DNA of 64,000 bases from a virus: IMG/VR virus record IMGVR_UViG_3300009545_000021, positions 1-64,000 of that record; one strand, 5' to 3'. A program made the position numbers and the translations under genes. Each line of letters begins with the position of its first letter. Positions within the stretch are counted from its first letter, which is position 1. A model generated the notes under the pieces. It was given only the letters and a program-made list of their open reading frames with translations, had not been told where the DNA came from and did no database searches. Positions 1,212 through 23,141 of the stretch are shown piece after piece.

Positions 1212-1880
1212 ATGCAGCGTCAATTCACCCCGCATCGCAAGATCCTCGAAGACAAGCGTTCGATCTGGCTCTCGCGCATTCATTGCTCGGCGCCGGGCTG
1301 CCAGAATTTCAATGACATCGCGCCGGGCGGCGGGGGCGGCATCCTGCCCCCAAACATTCTCGACCAGATGTGGCGCCGGCGCGGCTGGACGGTGGGGGGC
1401 AGCAAGGACGACGACCTTTGTCCGGACTGCACCACCAAGAAATTGCGCCAGCGCGTCTTCCGCGAGCCGGAAGACAAGGTGATCGAGCTGCGCCCGCGCT
1501 TTCGGGCCGAACCGGTGGCGCCGGCCCTGAAGCTGCCGCCGCCTTTGACCGAAGGCCTGCGCCGCACGATCGTCGCCGAAATCGAGGCGCATTGGAGCGA
1601 TAGCGGCGAGGGCTATGCCGGCGATTGGACTGACCGTGACGTGGCGCGCGATCTCGACGTGCCGCTGGCCTATGTCAAAAACATCCGCGAAAAGGTGTTT
1701 GGCGCCTGCGGCGAAAACCAGAAGATCGCCAAGCTGCGCGAGCGGGTGAAGGCGGCGGTGAGCCGGGCCGACGAAATGGAGGGCATCTTGACGCGCGCCC
1801 TGGACGAGTTTTGCGAATTCAAGAGTTACGTCAGCGGCTTGGTCGCCGAACTGAAAGAAGTATCTGAAAAGGTCTCATGA
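1212..1880 (+). CDS. Zinc-ribbon and HTH early protein
   Basis: 222 residues, no family recognised. Cysteines near residues 21 and 26 (HCSAPGCQNF) and a CPDC motif near 74 could form a zinc ribbon. Around residues 130-160 there is an HTH-like segment (DRDVARDLDVPLAYVKNI), and the C-terminal 55 residues are coiled-coil. The order zinc, HTH, coiled coil echoes the preceding gene, so the two may be related regulators. It is followed three bases later by the methyltransferase gene. Confidence 0.65.
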   Translation: MQRQFTPHRKILEDKRSIWLSRIHCSAPGCQNFNDIAPGGGGGILPPNILDQMWRRRGWTVGGSKDDDLCPDCTTKKLRQRVFREPEDKVIELRPRFRAEPVAPALKLPPPLTEGLRRTIVAEIEAHWSDSGEGYAGDWTDRDVARDLDVPLAYVKNIREKVFGACGENQKIAKLRERVKAAVSRADEMEGILTRALDEFCEFKSYVSGLVAELKEVSEKVS

Positions 1881-1883
1881 GCC

Positions 1884-2492
1884 ATGGTCAGGTTGGCGCT
1901 CTCCTATGAAAGGCGAGCGAACGAGCTTTACGAAACTCCGGCGTGGGTGACGCTGGCGCTTTTGTCGAAAATGACGCTGTCTCGGCATCTGGTCGAGCCG
2001 GCCTGCGGCACCGGCAAGATCGCCGCGGTGCTGTTCCACGCCGGCCATGTCGTCTTCGGCAACGACATCGTCGACTATGGTTCGATGCACCAGAATCGCG
2101 AAAGCGATTTCCTGACCTGGCGCTCGATGCCGGAGGGTTTCGGCTCCGTCTGCGGCAACCCGCCTTATGGTCGGGGCGCGGCCAAGCTGGCGCAGCGCTT
2201 TATCGAGCATGCGCTGGGGCTGACGCGGATGCATAGCGGCCAGGTGGCGATGCTGCTGCCGGCCGATTACGACCACGCGGCGGGCCGGGCCGGGCTGTTC
2301 GGCCATCCGGCCTTTGCCGGCCAGGTCAAGCTGCAGCGGCGCATTCGCTGGATCGAAGGCTCGACGGGCTCGCCGAGCCAAAACCATTCCTGGTTCGTCT
2401 GGGATTGGCGCCATCGGGGATTGCCCTTCGTGCTCTATGCCGACGGGCGCGAACAGGGGTCGGGGGAATGGCCGGCATCGGACGCGGGCTGA
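1884..2492 (+). CDS. DNA N6-adenine methyltransferase-like protein
   Basis: 202 residues. EPACGTG at residues 38-44 is the AdoMet-binding motif I and NPPYG at 92-96 is catalytic motif IV of N6-adenine (or N4-cytosine) DNA methyltransferases. No target-recognition domain is evident, so it is a compact orphan enzyme with no restriction partner nearby. It could protect phage DNA from host restriction or alter methylation-sensitive promoters; a GcrA-like protein is encoded just upstream. Its end overlaps the start of the next gene. Confidence 0.8.
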   Translation: MVRLALSYERRANELYETPAWVTLALLSKMTLSRHLVEPACGTGKIAAVLFHAGHVVFGNDIVDYGSMHQNRESDFLTWRSMPEGFGSVCGNPPYGRGAAKLAQRFIEHALGLTRMHSGQVAMLLPADYDHAAGRAGLFGHPAFAGQVKLQRRIRWIEGSTGSPSQNHSWFVWDWRHRGLPFVLYADGREQGSGEWPASDAG

Positions 2493-2863
2493 TCTGGGTT
2501 TTGAGTTGGCCGCTGCGCCGGCTGCAGCGCCGGCGCCGGGCGCAGGAAATCCAGACGGTGGCGAGCGCACATTACCGCACGAATTTTGTCGACGACACCG
2601 GCAAGGACACCGGGCTTACCGGCTACCATCAGGTGTTCTTTCATGTCGACGGCAATGGCCTGCGCTTCACCACGGTGGATTCCACGCACCCCTATTCGGT
2701 GAACGTGCACCCCTATGTGCGCTTCTGGCGCAAGCGCTGGAGCATGTTCGGCCAATTGCCGGAGGATGCCGAACATTACGATCAGAACGGACCGCCGGTC
2801 CCGCCTCCGCCGGCGCCGAGAAGCAAGAAAAATTTTCGCATCATTCCGGGCGGTCGCTCCTGA
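2468..2863 (+). CDS. Small phage protein with N-terminal hydrophobic segment
   Basis: 131 residues from the ATG at 2468, chosen because it overlaps the methyltransferase end by 25 bases; a longer start at 2405 would lie wholly inside that gene. Residues 5-13 are hydrophobic (RGLIWVLSW), followed by an Arg-rich stretch, then a beta-rich middle with several aromatic residues and a Pro-rich stretch before a basic end. No family recognised. It sits between the methyltransferase and the helicase. Confidence 0.6.
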   Translation: MAGIGRGLIWVLSWPLRRLQRRRRAQEIQTVASAHYRTNFVDDTGKDTGLTGYHQVFFHVDGNGLRFTTVDSTHPYSVNVHPYVRFWRKRWSMFGQLPEDAEHYDQNGPPVPPPPAPRSKKNFRIIPGGRS

Positions 2864-2884
2864 CGCCCGGCCAGGACGTCGCCG

Positions 2885-4300
2885 ATGGCTTCTGCAAACA
2901 AACTCCATTCGATCGAAGCCGAGCAGGCCGTGCTCGGTTCGCTCCTGCTCAACAATGGGCTCTACGGCAAGCTCGGCCGGTTTCTGCGCGCCGAGCATTT
3001 TTTCGATCCGCTGCACGGGGCGATCTTCGCCGCCTCCGAAGCCCTGCTCAACGACAACCGCCCCGCCAATCCGATCACAGTGCTGCCGGCGATCGGGGAC
3101 CAGCCCTTGGGCGACTCGAGCACCAAGAGCTACCTGATCGCCCTGGTGAGCCGGCGCACCCTGTCACCGGATATCGAAAGCCTGGCGGAGCTGGTGCGCG
3201 ACTATGCCGTGTCGCGCCGGCTGGCAGCGATCGGCGGCCAGGTCGCCGGCGCCGGCGAGCAGCCGCGCAGCGCGAACGAGCGCGCCTTCGATGAAATCGA
3301 CATGGTGCGCGGCGACCTCGCCGGCGCGATCGACAAGCGCGAGGCGCTGGGGGCGCTGGCCGAGCGCTTTTTGGACAGTGTCGAGCGCCGGCGTGAGGGC
3401 AAGGAAGAGGTTTTGCGCTATTCGACCGGCTTGCCCGATCTCGACAAGGATCTGCAGGGGGGGCTCTATGCCGGCGAGCTGACGATCCTGGCGGGGCGCC
3501 CCGGCATGGGCAAGACGGCGCTCGCTTGTTCGCTGGCGCGGCGCATCGCCAAAACGGAAGGCGAGCGCTGCGGCGTGTATCTCCTCTCCTTCGAGGTGAA
3601 CGACGAGCAGGTGGCGGCGCGCATGTTGGCCGATCAGGTCTATCGCAAGACGGATGCGCTCGGCTTTGGAAAAATCCTGAAGGGGTCGGATCTCGACGCC
3701 GAAGAAATGTGGCGGCTGGAGGAGGGGCGCGTGCTCCTGGCCAAGCTGCCCTTGATGGTGGACACGACCTCGAACCTGTCGCTCGGCCAGGTCGTCCAGC
3801 GGGTCAAGGCGGAAAAGGAGCGCCTGGCGCGCCAGAACCGCCGGCTCGGGCCGGTGATCATCGACTACCTGAAATACATTCGGGCGAGCGCCCGCTACCG
3901 CGGCCAGCGTCATCTCGAGGTCGGCGAGATCACCGCCGGGCTGCGGCAGGCGGCCAAGGATCTGGAAGTGCCGATGGTGCTGCTGGTGCAGCTCAATCGG
4001 CAGGTCGAGCAGCAGGGGCGCGGCGATCGCCGGCCGAATTTGGGGGACCTGCGCGACTCGGGCGAAATCGAGCAGGATGCCGATGTCGTGATCTTCGCCT
4101 ACCGCGATCACTATTACGTGATCAACTCGCCGGAGTACCGCGCCGGCAATGCCGATGCGCTCATCAAAGCGAGCCAGGTCGAGCACGATTTCGAGGCGAT
4201 CATCGCCAAGAATCGCAAGGGACCGACGCGCACCGTCATGCTCTATTGCGATATCGCCTGTTCCCACATTTCGCAGAGCGCAAGGGGTCTCGTGCTGTGA
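2885..4300 (+). CDS. dnaB: Replicative DNA helicase, DnaB family
   Basis: 471 residues, the usual DnaB length. The N-terminal domain (from about 8, SIEAEQAVLGSLLL) is typical of DnaB. Walker A GRPGMGKT is at 204-211, a Walker B-like IIDYL near 318, and the RecA-fold C-terminal domain carries a glutamine-rich LVQLNR sensor and LRDSGEIEQDADVV. It unwinds DNA 5' to 3' at the phage fork as a hexamer and recruits primase. The stop codon overlaps the next gene's GTG by four bases. No separate loader is recognised; the DUF1376-type neighbour may take that part. Confidence 0.95.
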   Translation: MASANKLHSIEAEQAVLGSLLLNNGLYGKLGRFLRAEHFFDPLHGAIFAASEALLNDNRPANPITVLPAIGDQPLGDSSTKSYLIALVSRRTLSPDIESLAELVRDYAVSRRLAAIGGQVAGAGEQPRSANERAFDEIDMVRGDLAGAIDKREALGALAERFLDSVERRREGKEEVLRYSTGLPDLDKDLQGGLYAGELTILAGRPGMGKTALACSLARRIAKTEGERCGVYLLSFEVNDEQVAARMLADQVYRKTDALGFGKILKGSDLDAEEMWRLEEGRVLLAKLPLMVDTTSNLSLGQVVQRVKAEKERLARQNRRLGPVIIDYLKYIRASARYRGQRHLEVGEITAGLRQAAKDLEVPMVLLVQLNRQVEQQGRGDRRPNLGDLRDSGEIEQDADVVIFAYRDHYYVINSPEYRAGNADALIKASQVEHDFEAIIAKNRKGPTRTVMLYCDIACSHISQSARGLVL

Positions 4301-5163
4301 CAACCATTCCCTGGGTGCAGTGGTATGCGGCTGATTTTTTGAACGGGGTGGTTGAGTTGGAAGTGGAGGAAATCGGCGTCTATGCCGTGATCCTGTGCCT
4401 GATCTACGACAGCGGCGGCCCGATCAAGGACGAGCCGGGGCGCCTGGCGCGGCGCTGCCGCAAGCGCCTGCCGCAGCTGGAAGCGCTGCTCGATCGGCTG
4501 GTGGCGCTCGGCAAAATCGAACGCTCAAACGGCCTGATCTCGAACCGGCGCTGCGCCAATGAGCTGCAAAAGCGGCGGGAAAAGATCGACAAAGCCCGCG
4601 ATCACGCAAACGTGAGGTGGAAGAAAGAAACCAAAAATCTCAACGATAACAATGAAGAAAAAATGCCGGCGCAATCCGGACGCATGCTCGATGCAGATGC
4701 TTACCAGAGTCAGACTCAGAGTAAGAAGAAAGAAACTCCCCTTCGGGGAGTAAAGAAAGACGCACCGCTCCCGCGGCGCTCCCAGCTCCCCAAGGATTTC
4801 GAATTGACGGCGGAGCGCAAGGCCGTGGCGGCACGCTGGAACATTCCGTACCTGCTGGTGGCCGGCGAGTTCGAACGCTTCTGCTCGCATCACGGCAGCA
4901 AGGGCACGGTGTTCCTCGATTGGGACAAGGCCTGGGTGACCTGGTGCTCGAAGGTGATGAAGTTCGCGGAAACGGGCGGCCTGTTCGCTCCGCCCACGCC
5001 GCCGGCGAGCGCGCCGCAGGACAGCGAGGCGCTGTGGGCGAGCCAGCTCGCCGTGCACCAGCGCGGCGGCTGGCAGATCGGCTGGGGGCCGGAACCGGGC
5101 GAGCCCGACTGCCGCATCCCGCCAGCCTTCGTCGCCAAATGGAAGGCGCGCAAGGCGGCCTGA
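4297..5163 (+). CDS. DUF1376 (YdaU-like) phage replication protein
   Basis: 288 residues from the GTG at 4297, which overlaps the helicase stop as GTGA; the frame is open further upstream but that part lies inside dnaB. The N-terminus (WVQWYAADFL, then EIGVYAVILCLIYD and LARRC near 45) is the DUF1376 domain found in phage replication or helicase-loader-like proteins. A Lys/Asn-rich AT-rich linker follows (about 110-150). The C-terminal third has FLDWDKAWVTWCSK, usual at the end of this family. Position after dnaB supports a role in replication. Confidence 0.8.
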   Translation: MTTIPWVQWYAADFLNGVVELEVEEIGVYAVILCLIYDSGGPIKDEPGRLARRCRKRLPQLEALLDRLVALGKIERSNGLISNRRCANELQKRREKIDKARDHANVRWKKETKNLNDNNEEKMPAQSGRMLDADAYQSQTQSKKKETPLRGVKKDAPLPRRSQLPKDFELTAERKAVAARWNIPYLLVAGEFERFCSHHGSKGTVFLDWDKAWVTWCSKVMKFAETGGLFAPPTPPASAPQDSEALWASQLAVHQRGGWQIGWGPEPGEPDCRIPPAFVAKWKARKAA

Positions 5164-5307
5164 GCGCGGCGCTGGCTGGCCTTGGCGCCATGGGGCGCTA
5201 GGGTGGTAGCCGCAGCGCAAGACGGCCGTTCTAGGGCCGCCGCAGAAGGCGCTTGCGAGGCGTGGCGGCTTTCGCATAGTTGAAACCGGTTTGCGCCGGA
5301 ATGCCTG

Positions 5308-6234
5308 ATGATGAGTGGTTCCTCGAACCCGTTGCAGCTGTTGAAGCGCTCGCAACGGGATTTTGTCGTGCGTGTGCTCTGGCTCAAGGGCCTGACGATC
5401 CAAGATACGGCGCGAACGGTCGGGGCGACCGCCGGCCAGGTCCGCGGGGTGGTGACGCGCTCGCTGCGCACGCCGCGTTCGGAAATGTCGCTGGGCGAGC
5501 GACAAACGGCCCTCAACCGGCTGCGCGAGGGCCAACCGGACGGCCTGGCGCTGCCGGAGACGCTGTTTCGGGCGCGGCCTTGCGAAAGCCTGAGCGATTT
5601 TGCTCGCAAAGCCATCAAGGCCGGACAGGAACGGCGCGGCAAGTTCGAACAGGTCAAGGACGAGAATGGCCGGCCGGTCGATGTGATCCGCACCGTGTCG
5701 GATGGGCTGGAGGAGGCGCGGATCAAGGGCTGGCTCTACGAGGCCAAGACCGATGGCGGGGCGAGCGGAATCGCCGCCCTGCGCAGCCAGGCGGGCAGCA
5801 ATCTGATGCGGGATTTTGCCCTCGCCATGGTGTCACCGATCAAAGAGGCGAAATTCGAGCTGGGCGGCACGGGTGGCCGGCCGAAAAACGAAATTCGCGA
5901 TGCAGCGATCGACGCGGCCGAACGCCTCCTGGGGCTGGAGAACCGGGTGCATCAACCGTGCTGGCCGCTGCTCTGCGCCGTGTGCCGCGACGGCTTCCAT
6001 ATCGATGATTATGCCCGCTCGATCCGCAAGCCCGCCCGCCAGATCCGCCGGCTGTTTCGCCGGGCGCTCGACGACATCGCGGTGCGCTACAAGCTCTTGG
6101 ACGAGCGCGAATACCGCAAGCGCTGGGGTTATCGTCGCCGGCTGAAAGAGATCGCCCGCGAGCGGCAAGAACACTTCCAAAAAATTCGGAAGCGTCGCAT
6201 GCTCAAGGCCATTGCCATGGGGAGTGCGCCGTGA
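5308..6234 (+). CDS. HTH-containing phage protein
   Basis: 308 residues. An HTH is visible at about 28-52 (LKGLTIQDTARTVGATAGQV), and a second DNA-binding-like region lies near 230-265 (DDYARSIRKPARQIRRLFRRAL) before a very basic C-terminal tail. The central part is rich in charged residues. Positive regulators of late phage transcription look similar in layout, but I cannot assign it. It starts after a 144-base gap below the replication genes and its stop overlaps the next start. Confidence 0.7.
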   Translation: MMSGSSNPLQLLKRSQRDFVVRVLWLKGLTIQDTARTVGATAGQVRGVVTRSLRTPRSEMSLGERQTALNRLREGQPDGLALPETLFRARPCESLSDFARKAIKAGQERRGKFEQVKDENGRPVDVIRTVSDGLEEARIKGWLYEAKTDGGASGIAALRSQAGSNLMRDFALAMVSPIKEAKFELGGTGGRPKNEIRDAAIDAAERLLGLENRVHQPCWPLLCAVCRDGFHIDDYARSIRKPARQIRRLFRRALDDIAVRYKLLDEREYRKRWGYRRRLKEIARERQEHFQKIRKRRMLKAIAMGSAP

Positions 6235-19126: not shown

Positions 19127-19420
19127 AGGCGAACGGGCTGGAGATGCACGTCACGCTCAAGGGCGAGGTCTGGTTCTGTACGGCTCGCACAAAAAGACCG
19201 CGACGTCCTTGACCGCGCAAAAGCGCGACGATAGGACTCATAAACAGAGCGCATCGGTTGCGAAGGCCCCTTAATCCTCCCACGGGAGGGGTCGAGCCCT
19301 GGGTGATCAGGGCTTTCGGGTGCGCTCATCCTCTTCCTGTAGCGAGCGCAGACATGCGCTATCGGGCGGGCAGGGAGGCCGAGAAGGGGGATGCCCCGTT
19401 ATCGAGCCTCCCGTAAGTTT
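19127..19420 (+). other. Non-coding stretch with serial hairpins
   Basis: No supported gene. Hairpins follow one another: CGCGC/GCGCG (19214-19227), CCTCCC/GGGAGG (about 19276-19289), AGCCCTG/CAGGGCT (about 19294-19313), AGCGCA/TGCGCT (about 19345-19360) and GGGAGGC/GCCTCCC (19373-19412). None has a clear U-tract. Together they look like structured RNA ahead of the Y RNA-like array. Confidence 0.45.
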
Positions 19421-19495
19421 AGCCGGGGCGAATGCTCGGCGGGTCTACATTCTGTCGAAATGAACGGACTCGCCAACCAACTCGTCGCCCCGGCT
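19421..19495 (+). ncRNA. Short Y RNA-like unit (unit A)
   Basis: A perfect 11-bp terminal stem: AGCCGGGGCGA (19421-19431) with TCGCCCCGGCT (19485-19495). The 5' strand runs into GGCGAATG, which fits the Ro60-binding motif GNCGAANG as I recall it, and CGAATGC followed by TACATT is shared with the two longer units. There is no T arm, so the tRNA-like module is missing; the 3' motif is a poor match. It ends seven bases before unit B. Confidence 0.5.
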
Positions 19496-19502
19496 TTCTC
19501 GA

Positions 19503-19638
19503 TCGACGTCGAGACGAATGCGGGTCGTGATTACATTGCTGGATCTTGGTTCGAATCCAAGTTGCTCCCTCGGGAGCGATGGCCGAATGGTAAGGCAAAC
19601 GAAAGACATCACGTCCTATTTTGTCGTCTCGACGTCGA
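19503..19638 (+). ncRNA. YrlA-like Y RNA with tRNA mimicry (unit B)
   Basis: The ends form a perfect 15-bp stem (19503-19517 with 19624-19638). GACGAATG on the 5' side and TTTTGTC on the 3' side fit the bacterial Ro60 motif pair GNCGAANG/CNUUGNC, with one deviation. Inside lie a T arm (19545-19561, TTCGAAT loop), an acceptor-like hairpin TTGCTCC-CTCG-GGAGCGA (19562-19579) and a D arm GCC/GGC with GG in the loop (19582-19596). T, acceptor, D order is the permuted tRNA mimicry of YrlA RNAs. Confidence 0.75.
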
Positions 19639-19644
19639 CCCGTT

Positions 19645-19786
19645 CGACGCTGCCGCGAATGCCTGTGTGACTACATTGTAAGCTTGAGGTCGTCGGTTCG
19701 ATTCCGATCGCTGGGCGCAAGCCCGGTGTAGCTCAGGGGTTAGAGCGCAAGAGGACGTCATGCATTCCCTTGTCGCGGCAGCGTCG
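19645..19786 (+). ncRNA. YrlA-like Y RNA with tRNA mimicry (unit C)
   Basis: Terminal stem of 14 perfect pairs (19645-19658 with 19773-19786). CGCGAATG and CCTTGTC are the Ro60-type motifs; the second is an exact CNUUGNC. T arm 19692-19708 (TTCGATT loop), acceptor-like hairpin 19709-19728 closed by a GCAA tetraloop, bases T8-A9, and a full D arm GCTC/GAGC (19731-19746). CAAG (19748-19751) pairs with CTTG (19683-19686) where an anticodon stem would be. It starts six bases after unit B. Confidence 0.8.
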
Positions 19787-19814: not shown

Positions 19815-19833
19815 ATTCCAGAATTTCTGGAAT
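19815..19833 (+). promoter_or_regulatory. 19-bp palindrome before the vWA gene
   Basis: ATTCCAGAA-T-TTCTGGAAT, nine perfect pairs about a single base, between the Y RNA array and the vWA gene. It could be an operator or a hairpin in the mRNA leader. It ends three bases before an ATG at 19837, which has no ribosome-binding site; the ATG at 19867 is the better start. Confidence 0.55.
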
Positions 19834-19866
19834 TAGATGACGGCCTCGCAACCGGGACCCCACCCC

Positions 19867-20631
19867 ATGCAGCACGATTTCATTCTGCTCGACCGTTCGC
19901 AATCCATGGATTCACACTGGAGCGAAGCCCTCGCCGCGGTCAACACCTACGTCGCCAAGCTCGCCGCCGACAAGGTCGATACCGGCGTCACGCTGGCGGT
20001 TTTCGATACCGTCGTCGGCCAGCCGAGCTTCGATATCCTGCGCGATCGCATCATCCCCTCGACCTGGCACCCGGTCGAAACGCGCGAGGCTTTTCCGCGT
20101 GGCATGACGCCGCTCTATGACAGCGTCGCCAAGATCGTCCACCTCGCCGAGCAGGGCAATTACAGCAAGGTCGCGATCATCATCATGACCGACGGCGAGG
20201 AGAATTCGAGCAAGGAGTACGACCGCAAGGGCGCGGCGGACCTGCTCGACAAATGCCGCGCCAAGGATTGGGCGGTGATCTTCCTCGGCGCCTCGTTTGA
20301 CAACCGTGTGCAGGCGGCCGGTCTCGGCGCGACGCGCAAGATGTCGGTGCCGATGTCCGCCGGCAATTACGTCTCCACCATCAACACCCTGTCGGCCAAG
20401 CGCGGGCTCTATGCCAGCGGTGCGGCGACGATGGACTCGATGGAGTTCAGCGACGCCGAGCTGGCCGAAGCTGTCACCCCGGCACCGGTCTGGGTGCCCG
20501 ATCCCAATTATGCGCAGCCGGCGGATTTCGATCCGACGCCGAGCGCCGGTTCGCCGCCCGACAGCGCGCAGCCGGGCTCTTCGAGCAGTGATGATTCCGC
20601 CGCTTCGGTCGACGTAGGGTCCTCGACATGA
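19867..20631 (+). CDS. von Willebrand A domain protein next to Y RNA-like genes
   Basis: 254 residues from ATG 19867 (an upstream ATG at 19837 adds ten). A complete MIDAS metal site is visible: DRSQS at 9-13, the Thr of RGMTPLYDS near 80 and the Asp of MTDGEENSS near 107. The vWA fold fills about residues 1-190; a Pro/Ser/Asp-rich disordered tail ends the protein. Ro60 proteins pair a TROVE/HEAT ring with a vWA domain; here only the vWA part exists. Placed 80 bases after the Y RNA-like array, it may act with those RNAs; this is inference. Its stop overlaps the next start. Confidence 0.8.
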   Translation: MQHDFILLDRSQSMDSHWSEALAAVNTYVAKLAADKVDTGVTLAVFDTVVGQPSFDILRDRIIPSTWHPVETREAFPRGMTPLYDSVAKIVHLAEQGNYSKVAIIIMTDGEENSSKEYDRKGAADLLDKCRAKDWAVIFLGASFDNRVQAAGLGATRKMSVPMSAGNYVSTINTLSAKRGLYASGAATMDSMEFSDAELAEAVTPAPVWVPDPNYAQPADFDPTPSAGSPPDSAQPGSSSSDDSAASVDVGSST

Positions 20632-21112: not shown

Positions 21113-21432
21113 TCACCCGCCGCAACTTCGTCGCCGGCCTGGCGGTTGCGCTGGCTGCACCGGCCATCGTGAAATACGAGTGGATCATGCCGGTTCGCTC
21201 GCTCAAGCCGGCGGTGATCCCGCCGCCGCAGCCCGAGATTGTTTTGGGTTACTATGCATTTTCAGAGGTCAGCGTGCCGGATGCCCTCAAGCGGGGTTGG
21301 TGGCGCGTTCGGCGCCTTTACATGAAAGATGGCAACGTCGAGATCTACCGGGAATTCACGCCCTACGATCCTCGCCTTGGCGAGCCTTACCCCTACGTTC
21401 TGGATAAGTGGACGGAAACGCTCTCGACCTGA
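21100..21432 (+). CDS. Small protein with Tat-like N-terminus, copy 2
   Basis: 110 residues. TRRNFVAGLAVALAAPAIV then KYEWIMPV, a paralogue of the gene at 20628 in its first 30 residues. The C-terminal two thirds have an aromatic beta-rich pattern (RGWWRVRRLYMKDGNVEIYR). Overlaps the terminase start by 25 bases. Confidence 0.65.
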   Translation: MSGLITRRNFVAGLAVALAAPAIVKYEWIMPVRSLKPAVIPPPQPEIVLGYYAFSEVSVPDALKRGWWRVRRLYMKDGNVEIYREFTPYDPRLGEPYPYVLDKWTETLST

Positions 21433-23141
21433 CCCTGCGTCGGGCCCTCGCCAACGAACAGGCCGCTCTGCTCGAGCTGGACCGGATCGATTGCGAGGAG
21501 TCACTGTCGACCTTCGTGCGCGGAGGCTGGCGTTTTATCGATCCCGCGCCCCTGGTCTGGGGTTGGCACCTGGACGCCATTGCCGAGCACCTGCAGGGGG
21601 TGATGCTCGGTCATATCCGCAACCTTCTGATCAATGTGCCGCCGCGGTCCTCGAAATCCTCGATGATCTCGGTGGCCTTTCCGGCCTTCGTCTGGGCGCA
21701 ACGCGAGCGCGGCCCGCTCGCCGGCCCGCAGGTGCAATTCCTCTGCGCCTCCTACGCGCAGCCGCTCTCCAACACCCTGTCGATCAAGTGCCGCAGCCTG
21801 ATGCAGTCGCGCTGGTATCAGGAACGCTGGGGGGATCGGTTTCAGCTCGCCGGCGACCAGAACCGCGTCACCCGCTTCAACAACACCGAAAACGGCTACC
21901 GCATCGCCACTTCGGTTGATGGCGGCGCTACCGGCGAGGGCGGCAACGTCCTGATCATCGACGACGCGGTTTCGGCCAAGGAAGGCAATTCCGAGGCGCA
22001 CCGGCTCGCTGCGAACGAATGGTGGGACACCACCATGTCGACCCGCCTCAACAACCCGGAGGTCGACGCCCGCATCATCGTCGCACAGCGCCTGCACGAA
22101 GACGACCTGCCCGGCCACGTCCTCGACAAGGACGATGGCAACGAATGGACGCACCTCAATCTGCCGATGCGCTACGAAAGCGACCGGCATTGCGTCACCG
22201 TTTTGATGTGGGACGAGGAGGGCCAGCCGGCCAAGACCTGGCAAGATCCGCGCCTGGTCGAGGGCGAGCTGCTTTGCCCGGCCCGTTTCACCGATCGCGT
22301 CGTCTCCCGGCTCGAGCGCGATCTGGGTCCCTACAACGCCGCCGGCCAGCTGCAGCAGCGCCCCGAGCCCAAGGGCGGCGGCATCTTCAAATATGAGTGG
22401 TGGCAGCCTTTCGGCAATCCGACCGACCTCGCCGACCCGCTTTATCGCAAGTATCCCAAGTTCGATTACGTCGTCGCCTCGCTCGACACGGCCTATACCG
22501 AAAAACAGGAGAACGACTTTTCGGCCATGACGTTGTGGGGCGTCTGGTCTGGAAGGGCCCTCCCGATCTCGCCCGCCCGGGCCGATCGGGAGGGCAACCG
22601 CTACAACACCGGCGAAGAATCCCGCTGGCGTGATGCGATCGACGCGACTAAGATCATGCTAGTTTGGGCGTGGCAGGAGCGTTTGGACCTGCACAGCCTG
22701 GTCAAGAAGGCGGCGCAGACCTGCAAGGATTTCAAGGTCGACCGGCTGCTGATCGAGGCGAAGGCCTCCGGCATCTCGGTGGCGCAGGAAATCCGCCGGC
22801 TCTACCTCAACGAAAGCTGGGGCGTTCAGCTCATCAACCCGGGCAACCTCGACAAGGTGGCGCGGGCCTATTCGGTGCAGCATCTGTTTTCGGAAGGCAT
22901 GATTTGGGCGCCCTATCACGGCGACCAGCCGCGCAGCTGGGTCGAGCCGGTGATGCGGCAGATGGCCAGTTTCCCCAAAGCAACGCATGACGACTTGACC
23001 GATAGCGCCACGATGGCGCTGCGGCATTTGCGCGATGTCGGCTTTGCCGTGCGCTCTGCCGAAATCGAGGAGGAAATCGACCGTAGCCTGACCTATAGAG
23101 GCAAGCCGCCCGCGCCGCTTTATCCCGGCTGCGGCGCATGA
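21408..23141 (+). CDS. terL: Terminase large subunit
   Basis: 577 residues from GTG 21408. The ATPase half has a P-loop variant NVPPRSSKSS near 76-85, Walker B LIIDD near 182-186 and RxxxxDLPGHVL downstream. The nuclease half has Asp in SLDTAY (about 360), RLLIEAKASG (about 450) and HDDLTDSA (about 526), the acidic set of the RNase H-like domain. It cuts and pumps phage DNA into the capsid through the portal encoded at 24460. Start lies inside the previous gene, so they are coupled. Confidence 0.93.
   Translation: MDGNALDLTLRRALANEQAALLELDRIDCEESLSTFVRGGWRFIDPAPLVWGWHLDAIAEHLQGVMLGHIRNLLINVPPRSSKSSMISVAFPAFVWAQRERGPLAGPQVQFLCASYAQPLSNTLSIKCRSLMQSRWYQERWGDRFQLAGDQNRVTRFNNTENGYRIATSVDGGATGEGGNVLIIDDAVSAKEGNSEAHRLAANEWWDTTMSTRLNNPEVDARIIVAQRLHEDDLPGHVLDKDDGNEWTHLNLPMRYESDRHCVTVLMWDEEGQPAKTWQDPRLVEGELLCPARFTDRVVSRLERDLGPYNAAGQLQQRPEPKGGGIFKYEWWQPFGNPTDLADPLYRKYPKFDYVVASLDTAYTEKQENDFSAMTLWGVWSGRALPISPARADREGNRYNTGEESRWRDAIDATKIMLVWAWQERLDLHSLVKKAAQTCKDFKVDRLLIEAKASGISVAQEIRRLYLNESWGVQLINPGNLDKVARAYSVQHLFSEGMIWAPYHGDQPRSWVEPVMRQMASFPKATHDDLTDSATMALRHLRDVGFAVRSAEIEEEIDRSLTYRGKPPAPLYPGCGA

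Follow-up and report, generated by a model that had tools for sequence, protein, structure and literature searches.

Y RNAs are small RNAs, in part tRNA mimics, whose genes usually lie next to that of Ro60, the protein that binds them. What can a phage gain from an array of Y RNAs when its genome offers no Ro60 for them to bind, so that they would need either the protein of the host or some other mode of action? This question is raised by a locus in the first 64,000 nucleotides of IMG/VR record IMGVR_UViG_3300009545_000021 (hereafter the window, meaning the whole stretch of DNA that was analysed), in which three Y RNA-like units stand in tandem ahead of a block of virion genes. A survey in 2014 reportedly sought Y RNAs near Ro60, and orphan arrays would therefore have escaped it.

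By sequence inspection, the three units lie back to back at 19421-19786 with spacers of 7 and 6 bases. The features of the locus are as follows:

19421 to 19495, + strand: unit A, a YrlB-like Y RNA of about 75 nt without a tRNA mimic (RF02565, fold and perfect stem); basal stem 19421-19431/19485-19495 (11 bp), inner stem 19438-19445/19467-19474
19503 to 19638, + strand: unit B, a YrlA-like Y RNA of 136 nt (RF02553 and fold); basal stem 19503-19517/19624-19638 (15 bp), inner stem 19526-19531/19608-19613
19545 to 19596, + strand: permuted tRNA-like module of unit B (YrlA alignment, positions by reading the sequence); T arm 19545-19561, acceptor-like hairpin 19562-19579, D arm about 19582-19596
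19645 to 19786, + strand: unit C, a YrlA-like Y RNA of 142 nt (RF02553 and fold); basal stem 19645-19658/19773-19786 (14 bp), inner stem 19664-19671/19757-19764
19692 to 19746, + strand: permuted tRNA-like module of unit C (YrlA alignment, positions by reading the sequence); T arm 19692-19708, acceptor-like hairpin 19709-19728, D arm 19731-19746
19837 to 20631, + strand: stand-alone VWA-domain protein of 264 aa (PF00092; phrog_7371, E 8.5e-27)
21408 to 23141, + strand: terminase large subunit (phrog_38, E 2.8e-82), given for context only

The basal stems are the longest perfect Watson-Crick stems of their units, and no other perfect inverted repeat with a gap of 40-130 bases in the whole window is as long as those of units B and C. 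Each unit also contains a second, inner compensated stem that had been overlooked earlier (GGCGGGUC/GACUCGCC in A, CGUGAU/AUCACG in B and UGUGUGAC/GUCAUGCA in C). All three occurrences of the pattern CGAATGC-N7..12-YTACATT in the 69,948-bp source record fall in the array. When the first and last letters are allowed as stem bases, the Ro60-binding motif pair GNCGAANG/CNUUGNC is found within the basal stems of B (GACGAATG/TTTTGTC) and C (GCGAATG/CCTTGTC); its 5' side is intact in all three units and its 3' side in B and C. The stems and 5' motif of unit A are present, with CTCGTC instead of CTTGTC on the 3' strand, a detail that had likewise been overlooked, and departures in the 3' motif are also seen in a few other phage units (TTCGTCG, CTCGTCG, CTAGTCG). 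None of 200 dinucleotide shuffles folds as well as A, B or C (z -4.7, -4.6 and -4.0, respectively), and the fold of the entire array has a z of -5.1. Remeasurement of the stem lengths and gaps reproduced the values in the preliminary description, whose shared motifs (CGAATGC and TACATT internal to the 5' stem of every unit, TTTTGTC in B, CCTTGTC in C) are all present, and the permuted order of T arm, closed acceptor-like hairpin and D arm that it had read in B and C agrees with their alignment over positions 1-114 of the YrlA model.

Other structured DNA flanks the array. Just upstream, a strongly folded element (19247-19327, z -3.0) consists of an outer stem, GAGCGCATC/GGTGCGCTC, enclosing two inner hairpins, and has neither an Rfam match above chance nor the Y RNA motif pair. 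Downstream, the palindrome ATTCCAGA-ATT-TCTGGAAT (19815-19835), possibly an operator or a weak terminator, separates unit C from the VWA gene. No recognisable sigma-70 promoter was found in the array region.

Whether the units belong to known Y RNA families was assessed with covariance models, a significant hit to which the preliminary description had named as support. The E-values are significant and the matches are full length: unit A aligns with YrlB (RF02565) at 32.5 bits (E 1.3e-4, model 1-78 of 78), and units B and C align with YrlA (RF02553) at 38.5 bits (E 8.2e-7) and 50.2 bits (E 3.4e-10), both over model positions 1-114 of 114. All three scores nevertheless fall below the curated gathering scores (97 for YrlB, 69 for YrlA), and a scan at these thresholds returned no match in the array, the units appearing only in E-value mode. 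The YrlA cut-off is strict for phage members, as just one of the 33 other Y-RNA virus records that we collected passes it. Ordinary genomes also give weak RF02553 matches, which probably come from tRNAs, and the E-value by itself is thus insufficient for identity.

We therefore turn to covariation, which is the decisive evidence for Y RNA identity. Public virus and bacterial contigs were scanned with DNA patterns blind to the basal stem, the 3' end was anchored on the YTTGTC motif, and pairing of the flanks was then measured. Of 7 flank positions, 4.95 are paired in the 22 virus units, compared with 2.82 when the partners are shuffled (z 8.3), and the corresponding values for 56 bacterial units are 4.64 and 3.06 (z 10.4), so that the basal stems covary. 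In both sets the pairing is confined to one register; the two registers lie one base apart since the starts of the two DNA patterns differ by one base. In an alignment of 16 units, picked partly by their stems, 95% of the positions in the basal, inner and T stems are paired (37-52% in slid registers), with compensatory changes in 16 of the 21 pairs.

These results leave very little room for the view that the units are hairpins formed by chance, the remnant of an attachment site or tRNA genes in decay, which we consider extremely improbable. The motifs of their T and D arms do resemble those of tRNA, and ordinary genomes yield weak RF02553 matches, but ARAGORN finds no tRNA here, the arms are permuted and closed, the basal stems covary, shuffled sequences fold less well, and the integrase gene lies about 40 kb from the array; covariation together with the full-length model matches refutes this reading. 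Judged by comparison with their relatives, A, B and C are shown to be genuine Y RNAs of the bacterial type, A being YrlB-like and B and C YrlA-like, and the early assignment to YrlA-type Y RNAs with a short relative is backed by models, covariation and relatives alike.

The likeness to the cellular families is close. YrlA of Salmonella, Deinococcus and others shares with units B and C the basal stem with a CGAAUG bulge and its UUGUC partner, the inner stem, the permuted succession of T arm, acceptor-like hairpin and D arm, and the length (136-142 nt); B and C differ in scoring below the cut-off and in being phage-borne, in a genome without a Ro60 gene anywhere. Like unit A, YrlB is short, lacks a tRNA mimic and stands in tandem ahead of YrlA-type units, but unit A scores far below the YrlB cut-off, carries the altered 3' motif and lies in a locus without rsr or rtcBA. 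The Salmonella operon is rsr-yrlBA-rtcBA (PMC7790460).

The genome that carries the array was considered over its full length. The source record is probably complete, as it has an exact 123-bp direct repeat at its termini, the usual though indirect sign of a complete assembly. The record is that of a temperate phage, with genes for a DnaB helicase, an SU10-like portal, terminase, virion and DNA-ejection proteins, an integrase and RecT. The long forward genes carry phage functions, and the array heads the packaging and virion gene block (VWA-terminase-portal). ARAGORN found no tRNA in the window or in the remainder of the record, and the array itself has neither a cloverleaf with an anticodon arm nor an open acceptor stem. 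It resembles phage tRNA arrays in that small structured RNA genes with T-arm and D-arm motifs are clustered near the terminase, but it contains no canonical tRNA, and its tRNA-like units have a permuted order and a basal stem that closes them. Compared with the DNA of named phages, the array matched only tRNAs of Gordonia phage Sixama.

No Ro60 was found in the record with Pfam PF05731 or, across all 69,948 bp, with a phage-built Ro60 profile (A1), and an unfiltered local search for a hidden divergent Ro60 with two profiles gave nothing below E 3. The phage-built profile detects bacterial Ro60 at E-values down to 1e-246. Throughout the record, then, the Y RNA genes have no Ro60 (rsr) gene beside them. 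The 80 loci of terminase relatives contain neither the array nor any other Y RNA, so that it does not rank among the core features long retained by a known phage group; for the same reason there is no orthologous array on which covariation within the lineage could be followed.

This absence of Ro60 is unusual among the relatives. Of 42 loci around bacterial YrlA, each no longer than 8 kb, 35 gave a Ro60 with the phage Ro60 profile, and at least four of the seven loci without it have the Y RNA at the locus edge. Ro60 is likewise present in 23 of the 33 other Y-RNA virus records (21 by Pfam TROVE/Ro60 and two by the phage profile), usually, from a reading of the coordinates, a few kb from a Y RNA. 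The ten remaining records are mostly fragments or lack a long end repeat, which makes the present record the best-supported orphan array; around their Y RNAs nothing is shared with the array locus except a VWA gene, in one record. Phages with both Ro60 and Y RNAs (G008/L173, L209 and Forza) resemble the present phage in often carrying several units and, in some cases, in having a VWA gene and a terminase nearby, but they have a Ro60 gene of their own, in most cases only a few kb away, and the Y RNAs of many are part of tRNA arrays.

Several of these relatives deserve description in their own right. A YrlA that had not been annotated occurs in Gordonia phage Forza (MK814760; L466, 3846-3945; 52.1 bits, E 7e-9), in a tRNA and tmRNA array flanked by a Ro60 gene and a VWA gene. 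The virus contig L161 combines Y-RNA-like units with tRNAs, a tmRNA and a VWA gene within about 5 kb (1743-5936), and Ro60 was not found in the 28-kb record. The virus L463 (IMGVR_UViG_3300049456_000112) has four tandem Y-RNA-like units with altered motifs at about 1788-2272 (5' GATGCTG..GTTACTTC, 3' CACTTGCT, the latter also present in the Forza YrlA region), and a divergent Ro60-like ORF of 453 aa directly downstream (2282-3640), which together look like a co-diverged Ro60-Y RNA pair. Its last unit (2128-2272) contains, within the Y-RNA-like stem, a tRNA core in the ordinary order of D, anticodon and T arms without an acceptor stem (RF00005, 46.8 bits, model 7-64 of 71), possibly a non-permuted tRNA mimic.

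Given that most Y-RNA viruses have Ro60 and the present phage does not, and that unit A is off the 3' consensus, the array might be the relic of a former Ro60-Y RNA module in which Ro60 was lost and the RNAs are now functionless. We think this improbable: the three basal stems are perfect and the inner stems and arms intact, although a relic would soon decay. As no Ro60 is encoded by the phage, use of the host protein is the most economical reading, and by analogy with the cellular systems we lean, by a little, towards the view that the phage contributes the Y RNAs and the host the Ro60 through which they work. The regular company of Ro60 and Y RNAs in bacterial loci and virus records and the retained Ro60-binding motif argue for this model, and the scores under the Rfam cut-offs, the 3' motif of unit A, the want of a recognisable sigma-70 promoter, the indirect nature of the evidence for completeness and the absence of the array from terminase relatives argue against it.

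In the RYPER complex of Deinococcus, PNPase is held to Ro60 by a Y RNA, which directs it to structured RNA (PMC8394870, review). In the phage, the array would be transcribed together with the VWA-terminase-portal block during infection or induction, and the units would be separated by cutting at the short gaps. The conserved basal stem and bulge would bind host Ro60 (Rsr), a step that we infer, and the tRNA-like module of B and C may recruit or gate an effector, PNPase in the Deinococcus case. In this way the phage could shift the choice between decay and survival of structured RNAs in the infected cell, contributing guide RNAs and borrowing the protein. Deinococcus is, to our knowledge, the one case in which the functions of bacterial Y RNAs have been worked out in detail.

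The RNAs could instead serve as decoys that titrate host Ro60, or enzymes acting on tRNA-like RNA, as a form of counter-defence. The three copies in a phage without its own Ro60 would suit such a role, and the tRNA-like domain of YrlA has been proposed as a competitive inhibitor of a tRNA nuclease in Salmonella (PMC7790460). However, a module without an anticodon arm would be a poor decoy for anticodon nucleases, no defence function of host Ro60 is established here, and the retention of two kinds of unit goes beyond the needs of a simple sponge, so that we hold this explanation to be unlikely, though it deserves more credit than decay of a former module.

The VWA gene begins about 50-80 bases past unit C on the same strand, homology favouring the ATG at 19867 as its start, and is possibly a functional neighbour of the array. 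An alignment of 33 relatives shows conserved MIDAS residues in a family without an assigned function. The AlphaFold model (pLDDT 85.8) returns generic VWA domains in a fold search, and for this reason no function is assigned; a PDB sequence search gave no match. The closest relative of the gene (56%) is in L463. Could this protein be the phage's own RNA partner, replacing or modifying Ro60 function? Besides its position, relatives of the gene occur at the tRNA arrays of Streptomyces phage Tomas, Gordonia phage Forza (with YrlA in the array) and Myxococcus phage Mx1, each with Ro60 in the region. Of 46 VWA records, 12 also contain Ro60, compared with 1 of the 36 records taken as background, and VWA genes lie closer to Y RNA or Ro60 than under random placement (P 0.003), an association that was tested after the fact and weakens to P 0.054 once related records are merged and weak hits dropped. 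Moreover, neither Y RNA nor Ro60 was found near most VWA relatives, and the protein consists of the VWA fold only, whereas the Y RNA site of Ro60 lies elsewhere, Y RNA being bound by the HEAT-repeat ring and not by the VWA domain. We accordingly give this proposal a small chance, slightly below that of a functionless relic.

Tandem phage Y RNAs with a short relative had at first seemed new. That view has to be given up, since phage YrlA and YrlB-YrlA tandems are already known and our own collection holds 33 further Y-RNA virus records, among them the five-unit array with short units of L209 and three YrlA beside tRNAs in L173. Phage YrlA has been described (PMC7765460), YrlA has been predicted in a Mycolicibacterium prophage (PMC8190616), and a TROVE protein is known in jumbo phages (PMC7824862), as is an RO60-like protein in mycobacteriophages (PMC12363180). 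What is unusual, and was overlooked earlier, is that an apparently complete genome has no Ro60 and no tRNA, and that a VWA gene adjoins the array. Novelty, if any, lies in the arrangement, in which a phage genome that is probably complete holds an array of Y RNAs and yet is devoid of Ro60 and tRNAs, although an earlier mention of orphan arrays is conceivable.

A phage with three well-formed Y RNAs and no Ro60 offers a simple test of whether Y RNAs act in trans on host Ro60. A bolder extension, which we put forward tentatively and as somewhat doubtful, is that there is a class of temperate phages whose Ro60-less Y RNA arrays redirect or disable the host Ro60-PNPase complex in trans, possibly with the VWA protein. 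If true, this would represent the takeover of a cellular RNA-decay complex by RNA only, and an array without Ro60 bears directly on why viruses carry Y RNAs.
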